Below are positions 9,599-47,525 of a DNA stretch of 64,000 nt, piece after piece. Under the pieces are notes generated by a model that saw only the letters and a program-made list of their open reading frames with translations, was not told the origin of the DNA and did no database searches. The position numbers and the translations under genes were made by a program. Origin of the DNA: Mycoplasmataceae bacterium (GTDB lineage Bacteria > Bacillota_I > Bacilli_A > Mycoplasmatales > Mycoplasmoidaceae). The stretch is taken from assembly GCA_031257095.1 (NCBI GenBank), contig JAIRPI010000011.1, forward strand, positions 62,001 to 126,000, given 5' to 3'. Position 1 is the stretch's first letter. Each line of letters starts with the position of its first letter.

Positions 9599-12500
9599 AT
9601 GCCAAAAAATCCTTTAATTAAAAAGGTGTTAGTTATCGGATCTGGCCCAATTATTATTGGTCAAGCAGCCGAATTTGATTATGCTGGTACCCAAGCTTGT
9701 TATGAATTAAAAAAAGAAGGCATTGAAGTTGTATTGGTTAATTCTAACCCAGCCACAATTATGACTGATAAGAATATGGCAGATAAGATTTATTTTGAGC
9801 CATTAACGGTTTGTTCTTTAACAAAAATTATTGCTAAAGAACGTCCAGATAGTATTTTGCCAAACCTTGGTGGACAAACAGCCTTAAACCTTGCCATGGA
9901 ATTGCACGAGCAAGGGATTTTATCAATGTATAACGTGCGCATGTTAGGTGCATCAGCAGCAGCCATTAAAAAAGCCGAAGACCGTCAAGCTTTTAAAGAT
10001 ACAATGCAAAAGATTAATGAACCATGCATTCCATCTTTAGTTGTTAATAATGTTGATGATGCTATTTCGTTTGTTAAAACGATTGGTTATCCAGTAGTAA
10101 TCCGCCCCGCCTATACACTTGGTGGTTCTGGCGGGGGGATTGCTAACAATCAAGAAGAATTAATTACTATTACCAATTCTGGTTTACTTGCTTCACGTGT
10201 GAAGCAAGTTTTAGTAGAAAAGTGTGTATCTGGTTGAAAAGAAATTGAATTTGAGGTTGTAAGAGACAGTGCGGGTAATGTGGTTACCATATGTAATATG
10301 GAAAACATTGATCCAGTTGGTGTTCATACTGGTGATAGTATTGTAATTGCTCCGTGTCAAACACTTGCTGATCGTGAATTACAAATGCTAAGAACGGCTT
10401 CACTAAAGATAATTACTGAATTGCAAATTGAAGGTGGTTGTAATGTCCAATATGCCCTTAACCCAAATTCATTCGAATATGCAGTAATTGAAGTTAACCC
10501 GCGCTTAAGTCGTTCATCGGCTTTAGCTTCAAAAGCAACTGGCTATCCTATTGCCCGTGTTGCTACCCGCATTGCTTTAGGTTATCATCTAGATGAAATC
10601 ATTAATATGGTTACTAAAAAAACATATGCATGTTTTGAACCGGTATTAGACTATGTTGTTGTTAAAATCCCCAAATGGCCATTTAATAAGTTCGTTAGTG
10701 CTTCAAAACAATTAGGAACACAAATGAAAGCTACGGGTGAAGTAATGGCGATTGGTACGAACTTTGAAATTGCTTTAATGAAAGCCATCCGTTCTTTAGA
10801 AGAGAAGAATATTGACGGCTTACAATCAACTAAATTTGCTAACTACACTAATGAGCAAATAAAAGATGATTTAAAAGTTGTTCATAGTGAAAGAATTTGA
10901 GTTATCGCCCAAGCACTAAGAAAAGGTTTTAGTGTTCAAGAATTAAGTGCGATGACAACGATGGATTCTTTTTATATTAATAAATTTAAAAATATTGTTG
11001 ATTTAGAAAAAACCTTACAAACGACAACGCTAACTCCATCATTATTGCTTCAAGCAAAGCGCTATGGATTTACTGATGCATCAATTAGTAAATTAACAAA
11101 AATCGATGTAGAAAAAATTTATAAAATGCGATTGGACAATAATATTATTGCCAACTTTAAAATGGTCGATACTTGTGCTTGTGAATTTGCCGCATCAAGT
11201 GCTTACTATTACTCGGCTTATTTTTCTGGCAACGAAGTTAACACCAAGAAAAAACATAGTAAGAAAATATTAATTATTGGTTCTGGTCCAATTAGAATTG
11301 GACAAGGAATTGAATTTGATTATTGTTCAGTTCATTGCGTATGAGCATTAAAAAAACTTGGTTATGAAACAATCATTGTCAATTCTAATCCAGAAACTGT
11401 TTCGACTGACTTTGATATTGCTGATAAACTATACTTTGAACCGCTTACTAAAGAAGATATCCAAAACATAGTTTATCATGAAAAACCAGATGGGGCGATT
11501 GTCCAGTTTGGTGGACAAACAGCCATTAAACTAACTAAAGCTTTAGTTAATATGAACATTCCAATCTTTGGCACGAGCGAAAAGAACATGGATCGTGCTG
11601 AAGATCGGAAGGAGTTTAATGAAGCATTAAATAAATGTAATATCCCACAGCCTTCAGGGGGAACAATCTACACGGTTGACCAAGCGATTAATGTCGCGAA
11701 TACTTTGAAATACCCGATCCTTGTGCGCCCATCATATGTTTTGGGCGGACAAGGAATGGCGATTGTTTATGATGAACCGTCACTAATCGAAGCGGTTAAT
11801 CAAATTAACAAAGTTGAACAAAAACACCCCATACTTATTGATAAGTATGTTATGGGAAGAGAGTGTGAAGTCGATGCCATTTGTGATGGTGAAGATATCC
11901 TTATCCCTGGGGTAATGGAACACTTAGAACGTGCGGGAGTACATTCGGGTGATAGTATTTCTGTTTATCCTGCCCATAGTATTTATCAAAAGCATTTAAA
12001 CACCATATGTGAATACACACGAAAAATAGCAAAAGAATTAAATATTATCGGAATCTTAAATATTCAATTCATTATTGCTAGTGATATTATTTATATTATC
12101 GAAGTTAATCCACGTTCAAGTCGAACTGTCCCTTATATTAGCAAAGTCACAAACTTGCCGGTCATTGATTTAGCTACCAAAGTTATTTTTGGGGCCAAAT
12201 TAAAGGATTTAGGGTATGGGACAGGGATTTATAAGGCGAGTGCTTTTAGTGCGGTTAAATTGCCAGTCTTTTCATTTGAGAAAATTAAAGGAAGTGAAAC
12301 TTCCTTAGGACCAGAAATGAAATCTACTGGGGAAGTATTAGGTATTGATCGTTCTTTTCCTGATGCCTTATTAAAAGCTTTTATTGCTGGTGGGATTAAT
12401 ATTAAACGTTCGGGCGGAATGTTAGTAACTGTTCGGCAAAAAGATTATGCTGAAGTATTACCAATTGTTAAAAAATATGCACAGTTAGGATTTAATATCT

Positions 12501-12808
12501 ATGCCACCCAAGGTACAGGGACTTATCTAAAGAATAACGGCGTGCATGTACAAATACTATCTAAACTATGAGAAGGTGATGATAACATAATGCAATTGAT
12601 CATGCAAAACAAAATAAGCATTATTGTTAACACACCGACAACATTATCTAAACATTCAAATACTGACGGATTTAGAATTCGTCGTTTGGCAGTTGAATCA
12701 AAAGTTCCATGTTTTACATCATTAGACACGGTTAATGCTTTATGAGAAGCAATTAAAAACAACAAAGAAGAAAAAGATTTGGTGCCTGTCGATATTGCTG
12801 CAATATAG
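9599..12808 (+). CDS. carB: Carbamoyl-phosphate synthase large subunit
   Basis: Full-length 1069-residue CarB. It makes carbamoyl phosphate from bicarbonate, ammonia and two ATP for pyrimidine or arginine pathways. The two homologous halves are both present. The first opens with [20 protein letters not shown]; the second restarts near residue 557 with [19 protein letters not shown]. Each carries an ATP-grasp domain ([31 protein letters not shown]) and the ExNPR signature. A C-terminal MGS-like domain ([17 protein letters not shown]) completes it. There is no carA, pyrB or argF in the window. Several TGA codons are Trp. Confidence 0.95.
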
Positions 12809-12829: not shown

Positions 12830-13702
12830 ATGACTAAGAGATGATTATTATCAATTCCAATAATTCCATTAAGCATTTTAATTGGTGTTTGCTTTACTAG
12901 TTGTGCGACTAATCACGACCCAAGCCATCCATTATTTAATTATGAAATGGTTGGTGCTAAACAACAAACTAGCTTAAATGGCAAACAAGGTATAGCGATG
13001 GATGATAATTGTTATTACATCAGTGACAATAACAAATTAATTAAATATGACAAGGATTGAAAACTGATTAAGGAAATTGATAATGTTAAGGATTACTTTA
13101 CAAATGTAAATGATCACCACCATATTGGCGATATTGAAGTGTATAATGGTATCATTTACACCGTTGGTGAGAATTTTGAAAACTCATTGGGGGGGGCAAT
13201 TGAAGTTGGTTTATTTAACACTAACCTCCAATGGATTGCAACAATAAATATTTATCAAGATGATCACGGTTTAAAAGAAGTATCAGGAATTACTATCGAT
13301 AAAACTGATAGTTTAATATGAATTAGTTCTTGATGCGATGGTGACTCTGGTCAATATTTATACGCTTATTCTTATCCTGATTTTAAATTTGTTAAAAAAA
13401 TTAAAACCAATCCATGAGTGCAAAAAATTCAAGGTATTAAATATTACAAAGGATTTATTTTTGCTTCATGTGATGATGATACGAAATGAAGCGGCGACAA
13501 ACAAGATAAAGATCATCTATATCGTATTAACCCAAAAAATGGACATGCCATATTAGAACATACATTAAATGAATTTGCTGATAATAAAGAAACGGAAGGT
13601 TTAACGATTGATTCTCATACTGGTGAGTTTTTAATAATGCAAAATGTTGATAATAAAGGTTTATTAACATATTTTAAAACTTCAAAATATAAAGCGCAAT
13701 AA
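12830..13702 (+). CDS. Predicted lipoprotein with beta-propeller-like ectodomain
   Basis: 290 residues. A hydrophobic signal ends in a lipobox-like FTSC with Cys25, predicting a membrane-anchored surface lipoprotein. The mature part has repeated segments of the type GIAMDD-YYISDN, IEVYNGIIYTVG, VSGITID-SLIWIS, LYRINP and EGLTID-GEFLIM. This pattern resembles a six-bladed propeller or NHL-like fold, inferred from pattern only. An 8-G tract at 13189-13196 lies in frame inside the gene, so any change in tract length would truncate the protein. A TATAAT box ends 8 bases before the ATG. Confidence 0.75.
13189..13196 (+). repeat. 8-G homopolymer inside lipoprotein gene (in frame)
   Basis: Eight consecutive G in the sense strand, about 360 bases after the start. 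The reading frame is open on both sides. This tract length matches the two other G/C tracts at 14918 and 46099. Confidence 0.8.
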
Positions 13703-13757: not shown

Positions 13758-14941
13758 CTACAAAATTAATTCTTCTCAAGCAAAACTTGCATTATATAAA
13801 GCTAGAATTTCGGTATTTGTAGAATTACATCCAGGATTGGTTGAGGTATTTGAGTAAAAGTTATTATTAGTTCATGATGATGAAGCAGATGGTGACTTAT
13901 GGCAAGAGTAGCTAAAAGCAAATTGTTCAGAACTAGTATTTCCACTATCCATGCATGTAGTTATAGAATTATCGTTAACATTAATGGTTACTCAATTATT
14001 CGATACTATATCAATAAATGAAATGGCATGTGCTTTGCACAATATGGCGTTATTAGCGTTATGACATTCACTTTTCAAGACATTATGGTCAAACGTTATA
14101 GTTTGTCCTGTCTTGCCATTATAATTTGATGCAAAAGCTATATTGAAACTTCCATTTAAGGAAATATTAATAATCTTGTTTGAGCTAATATCAACATTGC
14201 CATAAACTGGGTCTTCAAATAAAACGCCGAACGATTGTGAATTTAAAGACAATCGATTACAAATAATTACATTTGATTTGATATTAACATTAGAATCAAC
14301 ATCTAATATATCAGTAAAAAGCAATCCCGTCGAACAGTCTAAAATCTTATTATTTTGAAATGTCACGTTTTGTGAAATTTCTTCTAACACGCAAACACCT
14401 GTTGTATTATCATTACCAATGATGTTAATGTTAGAAATATTTCAATTTATCTCGTTGGTAGGAGTGCTTGGCGAGGTATTTGGACTAGTCATCCCAAAAA
14501 TAATTCCTGCTGTTTTAGAATGTGAGCTTATAAGATTAATTGTTGCATTGTCTGTTCCAATAAGATCGCATGTGTATCCATCCGGACAAAATATTGGTGT
14601 ATTAATTTCTCCTTCAAGTTTAAATTTGTTAATTAAGCCATTTTGTTGGCTTATACTTTCTAAATTAATGCAAACCAAGTCATCGAAAGAAGACGTAGGC
14701 TTTTCAGCACGATAAATTTTCGGAACAGTCATAGTCGTGGTTTTGTCATTGATAACAAAATAATTATCATGATTATCACCACCACCATCATTATTATGCT
14801 TGTGATATCAAATTGCATACCCAATACCAATACCAATTCCGGCAAAAGATAACAACCCTAACGGGACAAACACCCCCAATAATATTTTGTTTTTTCTTAA
14901 GCTATCAGAATGTTTGTGGGGGGGGTTATTTGTCTTTTCAT
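13758..14941 (-). CDS. Phase-variable beta-helix-like surface protein (OFF: 8-C tract)
   Basis: ATG 14941 follows a TATAAT box by 9 bases. After five codons comes an 8-C tract (sense strand; plus-strand G 14918-14925). As sequenced, the frame stops after 14 residues. With one more C it stays open to TAG 13758-13760, giving about 394 residues. That product has a hydrophobic anchor (LLGVFVPLGLLSFAGIGIG), a His/Asn/Gly linker, and an ectodomain of short Asn-rich repeats such as NKILDCSTGL, SNVNIKSNVIICN and VDISSNKIINIS. These resemble right-handed parallel beta-helix rungs. There is no lipobox Cys. The fold is inferred by pattern; the frame offset is direct observation. Confidence 0.75.
14918..14925 (-). 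repeat. 8-base C tract controlling the reading frame of the surface gene
   Basis: Eight G on the plus strand, equal to eight C in the sense strand, starting 16 bases after the A of the ATG. The downstream frame is open only with 9 (or 6, 12) bases here. Confidence 0.85.
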
Positions 14942-14950
14942 ATTAAAATA

Positions 14951-14956
14951 ATTATA
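14951..14956 (-). promoter_or_regulatory. -10 box of the beta-helix surface gene
   Basis: TATAAT on the minus strand, 9 bases before ATG 14941. A promoter this good supports a gene that is intact apart from tract length. Confidence 0.5.
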
Positions 14957-46068: not shown

Positions 46069-47525
46069 ATGAATAAAATAAAAACAAAATCCCACTCAGG
46101 GGGGGGTTAAATAAAAACCACAAAAAGAAAGTTTTATTACTATCTTTATTAATTCCTATTGGATTACTTGCCGTTGCTGGTGCTACTGTTGGCGGATTAT
46201 ATGGAGCGGGTGTTATTGCCCCCAAAGCATCACCAACCAATATTGCTAGTATATTTACCGATGGTACTAGTGTATATCAATGATCAAATTCGGCAACAAC
46301 TAAAGACCAAACTAGTACTGAAGACCCATCTAAAGAAGGCTCAGCGGCAAAACCATGAAGCCTGGTTGACTCGCCGTCGACAGACGCCATAATAGATAAT
46401 CTTAATAGTTTTCTCACACGTAGTAATCAACAATCTAAAAATACTGTTTTCAACGATTTAACGTTTACTGCATGAGCACAAGATGGTTCTACTAATTTTT
46501 ATAAATGTACTGCATCAGCAAACACAGCAAGTTATGATGGTTCTTTTCAAATTGGTTTGTATTGAAACCAAACGCATGAACTTAGCGGTGCAGTCACAAG
46601 TCGCATTGTTGATTATTCTAGTATCACCACTACTAAAACTGCCGGTGACGTTTTAGCTTCATTGTCTACACAAAATTCTAGCTTCCATCCAGATGCTGTT
46701 GAGATAGGTTATACTAGCCAAAGCACTTTTTATTCTTATACTCTTTCAACACAAATGACACAAACCAATCTGACTAACTTATGAAAAGATATTGGCAATT
46801 CTAACGGTTATGGTTATGAACTAACTCTACAAGCTAAGACTGGTGGTTGATATAGTGGAAGCACAAATATAAATATTTATGTTAAATTAAAACGTATTAG
46901 TTTTAATCCTAATTTATTTGGTAATGATCGCTCATTAAATGATAATGGTGGTGCTAATCCTTTTATCACTATTCCTAATTTAGAACAAGCAACCCGCGCT
47001 TGAATTACTCGTTATAATTCTACCGCCTTTAATGATGGAACAGCCGCGTGGGCTAATTTTTATACAAGCAACACAAGCAACTGTAATTTAGAAATAGATA
47101 CTGGAAAATTGAAACTTCAATATGGTGATGCTAATCAATTTTATACAAGCGATAGCGGAACGGCAACTTTCTTTACTTTTAATGTTCAACAAAAAGAAAG
47201 TTTAGTTGATGTATTTGAAAATAATGATCATACAACAAGCATTCCTACCGATACCGCTACCAATAATCTTATTTATATTAATAAACCATTGGCTACTCAT
47301 GAATGTTGAGTTGACACCATTATTTTGCTAAAAGAACAATATTCTGATGGAACTTATTCAGACTTTCGTGGTGCCGACTTTACATCAATGTATATTTACA
47401 GTGTATCATTTAGTAATGGTACAACCGGTTTTAATGGGACATTAACAGTTAGTCCCTTAACCGGTTCATTGTTTTATGAAGACACAGTTACACTTTATTG
47501 AAAAACTTATAACTACACTGCATAA
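46069..47525 (+). CDS. Phase-variable surface protein (OFF: 8-G tract)
   Basis: ATG 46069 is followed after 10 codons by eight G (46099-46106), and the frame then ends at TAA 46108 after 13 residues. Read one base earlier, from 46107, the frame is open for 472 codons to TAA 47523-47525, with many TGA-Trp codons. A 9-G tract would join the two into a ~486-residue protein. The product has a hydrophobic N-terminal anchor (LLLSLLIPIGLLAVAGATVG) and a Ser/Thr/Asn-rich ectodomain with repeated Trp-Tyr-Asn motifs, and no lipobox Cys. A close match in layout to the gene at 13758-14941. Adhesion or antigenic role inferred only. Confidence 0.78.
46099..46106 (+). repeat. 8-G tract controlling the surface-gene frame
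   Basis: Eight G beginning 30 bases after the A of ATG 46069. The downstream frame needs 9 (or 6, 12) bases. Confidence 0.85.

Follow-up and report, generated by a model that had tools for sequence, protein, structure and literature searches.

A surface-protein gene on the minus strand of the analyzed DNA (the window, 64,000 nucleotides of an uncultured mollicute genome) stands one base out of frame behind a run of eight C residues near its 5′ end, and we consider it, with a probability of roughly 85%, to be a phase-variable (contingency) gene whose product is a surface protein anchored in the membrane. The organism has at least 16 such tract-bearing genes for surface or secreted-type proteins. 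In the mechanism that we propose, slipped-strand mispairing would alter the C8 run by one base at high frequency, and each change would move the ATG of a probably leaderless mRNA into or out of frame with the membrane anchor and a predicted beta-helix ectodomain. The allele in the present assembly would be the OFF state and, with run length slipping this frequently, cell populations would hold mixed coats.

Organization of the C8 gene

The window corresponds to positions 62001-126000 of contig 5 in an assembly of 664,759 bases (27 contigs, 83% complete). TGA is read as tryptophan (table 4): the long frame of the C8 gene is open under this code, with five TGA codons, and breaks up under table 11. 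The C8 gene (13758-14956, minus strand) and a second gene of like design in the window have the following features:

14951-14956, minus strand: -10 element TATAAT, 9 nt 5′ of the ATG
14926-14941, minus strand: ATG (14941-14939) and 16-nt head, encoding MKRQI and the first base of T
14918-14925, minus strand: C8 tract, the proposed slippage site, coding T-P-P (reads G8 on the plus strand)
14897-14941, minus strand: 14-codon reading that starts at the ATG and is closed by a stop, the putative present OFF state (from translation)
13758-14942, minus strand: long open frame encoding the surface protein, with 394 codons from stop to stop, 388 of them past the tract (from the open reading frame)
14808-14885, minus strand: membrane anchor ILLGVFVPLGLLSFAGIGIGIGYAIW (helix 14-46 in the structural model; relatives have similar anchors)
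13896-14765, minus strand: ectodomain, predicted right-handed parallel beta-helix (from structure prediction)
46069-47525, plus strand: 46 kb gene of like design, OFF, with its ATG at 46069, a G8 tract at 46099-46106, and a long frame to 47525

The original prediction, made from the letters of the window, had described a promoter, an ATG, a short head, an 8-base C tract, and a long frame one base off, and its coordinates and frame statement proved right. The ATG frame reads MKRQITPPTNILIA and then stops, with the tract occupying codons 6-8, and the long frame is one base out of register with this ATG. At the base composition of the window, 388 open codons would be met by chance with a probability of ~7e-11. 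Elsewhere in the genome, three more C8 genes likewise have 16 nt from ATG to tract. Judging from the position of the TATAAT element, a leader on the mRNA is probably absent or very short. Because TATAAT lies similarly close to the ATG in 8 of the 16 tract genes (6-12 nt 5′) and in 7 of 57 other genes of the window (6-8 nt 5′), leaderless mRNAs seem usual in this organism.

The 46 kb gene had been expected to share the design, and it does, carrying a G8 tract and likewise being out of frame. When the two proteins were compared, only 14 residues of the membrane anchor aligned (E 0.03); by this measure, the ectodomains are unrelated, which agrees with the original prediction.

The convergent neighbor of the C8 gene, a lipoprotein gene at 12830-13702 (plus strand), has a G8 run of its own at 13189-13196, which is mid-gene, in frame, and 1.7 kb from the C8 tract. 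The locus is also adjoined by a gene for the carbamoyl-phosphate synthase large subunit (9599-12808), which is unusual in a small mollicute genome.

Genome-wide set of G and C runs

A whole-genome search for C7 on both strands returned 24 separate C or G runs of at least 7 bases in 665 kb, 19 of which are at least 8 bases long, compared with 0.8 and 0.5 runs of at least 8 expected under order-1 and order-2 Markov models of the window, respectively. Order-3 and order-4 models, whose training sequence still includes the runs, expect 3-5. Two-thirds of the runs (16/24) are close to a gene's 5′ end (p ~3e-9 if 600 genes are assumed and the initial 50 codons of each are counted). All 16 genes encode lipoproteins or membrane proteins with an N-terminal helix, and the run is located before, in, or just behind this helix. 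Where the tract precedes the anchor, the run mostly starts at the second codon position and codes T-P-P or R-G-G. The remaining runs are mid-gene, including those in an infB-like gene (assigned by eye) and in several large genes.

Frames were read in stretches around every G/C run and, with ON/OFF calls coming from one draft, metagenome-like assembly, both frame states were found among the 16 N-terminal tract genes, seven being in frame and nine out of frame with the promoter-proximal ATG:

In frame: C4:7609 (C8), C6:3010 (C8), C6:4270 (G10), C14:48553 (G8), C8:24997 (G8), C17:1915 (G8), C14:24567 (C8)
Out of frame: window C8 gene, 46 kb gene, C5:131088, C11:1349, C21:30087, C22:38404, C17:674, C4:10662, C4:1006

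The OFF call for C5:131088 is less sure because a further in-frame ATG, without a promoter match, is present upstream. The in-frame G10 surface gene C6:4270 (L049:4270-4279) lies directly 3′ of the in-frame C8 gene C6:3010.

Sibling genes and alternative explanations

C6:3010, a full-length sibling with 66% identity to the window C8 gene, shares its C8 tract and 16-nt head length and is in frame. The two genes differ with a dS of ~1.25 and a dN/dS of 0.18, whereas shifted-frame readings of the same alignment give pN/pS values of 1.0-1.2, which argues that the long frame of the window gene is under purifying selection as a protein. The C8 run has been kept in both copies although synonymous sites are near saturation and CCC makes up only 7.6% of proline codons in the window. 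A further sibling, C4:7609, matches the window gene in its C8 and head length and is in frame. Alignment of the window gene with its in-frame siblings, C4:7609 among them, is compatible with a one-base difference either within the C run or in the few bases that follow it.

A change in tract length itself is caught in a trio of siblings that are nearly identical around the run: C8:24997 has G8 and is in frame, C17:674 has G7 and is out of frame, and C17:1915 has G8 and is in frame. The trio alignment spans 200 nt, and its portion from the basic segment preceding the anchor onward has a single gap, which is in the tract. The trio (L056:674-680, L056:1915-1922, and L051:2498-2505) also has LDLSGAVFA-type repeats behind the anchor.

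The equal tract length and offset of the window C8 gene and the 46 kb gene had been put forward as an argument against random decay. The genome-wide set of 24 runs bears out that the pattern is not chance, but the argument itself is weak evidence, because C4:7609 and C6:3010 have the same C8 and head length and are in frame. The strong evidence comes from the set of runs across the genome and from the G8/G7/G8 trio. Three features of contingency loci are thus found together: a 5′ run longer than chance, an intact and selected frame behind it, and both frame states among close relatives.

The out-of-frame state of the window copy could also be attributed to the following: (i) An ordinary frameshift struck this copy, which would be a pseudogene with no switching, its in-frame sibling serving as a possible replacement. 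We regard this as unlikely, since the 388 codons contain no other lesion and the long frame shows purifying selection, since the long frame is intact in each of the tract genes, whether among the nine out of frame or the seven in frame, and since G/C runs are far above expectation. (ii) The gene is expressed as it stands, with some full-length protein arising from slippage during transcription or from −1 frameshifting by the ribosome at the C8 run. Such a run could plausibly be slippery, and slippage on poly(A) tracts gives in-frame mRNAs in Buchnera (as cited in PMC2831843). However, the siblings that share the C8 and the head length need no shift to be in frame, so the family lacks the fixed offset that programmed frameshifting would need, and we give this explanation only a small chance. 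(iii) Translation begins after the tract, for example, at the TTG at 14879, which opens a 373-aa reading frame (13758-14879), so that the gene is not off; this is very improbable, as such a start loses the basic residues before the membrane helix, which the siblings keep, and leaves the head and tract without explanation. (iv) A homopolymer error in sequencing or assembly, to which runs of 8-10 are prone in some technologies, mimics the out-of-frame state; this too we hold to be highly improbable, given that the excess and position of the runs are not those of errors and that the other long genes in the window show no interruption. Slippage of the C8 run as a phase-variable switch is therefore the reading that we retain.

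Predicted structure of the ectodomain

The ectodomain had been expected to form a parallel beta-helix. A Pfam profile search with the window C8 protein had no match at E 0.1, and hence pointed to no named adhesin or beta-helix family. An AlphaFold2 model was built from a five-sequence alignment including the sibling (66%) and three other sequences (24-27%). Its mean pLDDT is 62, rising to ~85 in residues 61-130, and it has a helix at the N terminus and about 25 short strands. Foldseek matches to the model were weak (best E 0.05) and mostly to right-handed beta-helices, including lyases, tailspikes, and the adhesins PfbA and SRRP. Alignment of the model with the leading beta-helix matches by VIA-align gave Z values of 15-19 over 205-266 residues. 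The expected fold was thus predicted, at limited model confidence and with weak database matches, and the ectodomain is likely a right-handed parallel beta-helix. Its role would probably be adhesion or glycan binding. A scan of named genomes for the window C8 gene family, using two peptide patterns, found none.

Fused and putative attenuator forms in related species

HisS encoded in the window is 54-64% identical to HisS of 32 other species of its genus. Based on a HisS identity of 62-63%, the MAGs Pq454_bin21 and Po218_bin18 (both titled Mycoplasmataceae bacterium) are probably congeners.

The TATAAT-ATG-run pattern is present in several related species, most often in the genomes G024, G027, and G023, and reversed-pattern controls were nearly empty. 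Genome G008 has the fused form, as in the window, in two genes that have the heads MKHNTPP and MKTRTPP before anchors resembling the one in the 46 kb gene and that are out of frame. In G024, G027, and G023, the element consists of TATAAT, a probably leaderless ATG, a 4-codon head, a run of 8-11 (G8-11), a conserved short stretch, and a small hairpin; an intrinsic terminator follows ~44-85 nt behind the run and, in copies whose contig extends so far, a surface gene begins behind the terminator at its own start codon. Both stems, small hairpin and terminator, show compensatory changes. One of the three frames enters or passes the terminator, and in the other two a stop codon mostly comes 1-31 nt past the run. 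Of 56 copies, 18 have their ATG in the long phase, which is one-third, as a randomly phased run would give.

With a covariance model (E <0.01), 44, 20, and 16 matches were obtained in G024, G027, and G023, respectively, the weakest of which are doubtful, for ~80 copies in all (G024: L202-L215 and L253-L270; G027: L273-L289; G023: L271, L272, and L290-L294). The same model gave a single borderline match in the genome of the window (E 0.003), without TATAAT-ATG nearby. Rfam returned no family match in the window or in the four putative attenuator loci scanned. The G024 repeats were also considered as further fused genes; this was rejected because no long frame lies directly behind the tract and the terminator and a separate start codon intervene before the surface gene. 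In G015:C49, two similar TATAAT-ATG-C11/C12 elements (L297 and L298) have no long frame behind them and are perhaps another leader type.

In Streptococcus gallolyticus, Pil1 is controlled by a phase-variable leader-peptide attenuator with GCAGA repeats (PMC3894217). The elements in G023, G024, and G027 resemble it in having a tract, a short leader ORF, an intrinsic terminator, and a surface gene, but they have a G8-11 homopolymer instead of GCAGA, a choice of frame instead of graded leader length, and dozens of copies per genome. The arrangement looks like a variant of Pil1-type logic that has not been described before. The window C8 gene was itself considered as a Pil1-type attenuator, which was rejected, as its tract is in the head of the structural gene, the same as in the in-frame sibling.

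We think it somewhat probable that one genus uses one module (TATAAT, leaderless ATG, short head, and G/C run) in two ways. In the genome of the window, the module would be fused to surface genes. In G024, G027, and G023, it would form ~80 leader ORFs before an intrinsic terminator, where one frame in three, by taking the ribosome into the stem, would turn on the surface gene, amounting to a genome-wide tract-phased attenuator system.

Relation to known contingency loci and biological meaning

Poly(C) and poly(G) contingency loci are known from Neisseria, Campylobacter, and Helicobacter. The set described here resembles these in that many genes per genome have frame-shifting simple repeats, including G/C runs of ~8-10, and differs in its mollicute host, table 4 code, probably leaderless mRNAs, and products anchored in a single membrane. 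Simple-repeat contingency loci of Neisseria are treated in PMC5084427. Within the mollicutes, Vaa of Mycoplasma hominis and P78 of M. fermentans vary in phase by frameshifts in a 5′ poly(A) run, as summarized in PMC2831843. As far as that summary describes them, the run lies close to the 5′ end of the gene for a surface protein, and a one-base change in its length switches the frame, as proposed here for the window C8 gene. The differences are that Vaa and P78 are single genes with poly(A) runs, whereas the genome of the window, though AT-rich, uses C or G runs in at least 16 genes. The window C8 gene thus adds to a known type, frameshift phase variation by a homopolymer run; we found no earlier description of poly(C)/poly(G) switching in uncultured mollicutes in the open-access literature.

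For gene annotation, the consequence is that gene callers will call about half of the tract genes broken or miss them. For the cell, a coat protein gene that stands one base out of frame at a slippery run can probably be switched on and off, which would vary the surface in the way that other bacteria do. If the attenuator reading is true, the genus offers a natural comparison of two wirings of one contingency module. The 0.66 Mb draft genome of this uncultured mollicute would, very probably, encode a coat of at least 16 proteins that are switched on and off in combination by C and G runs, which are otherwise rare in the genome.
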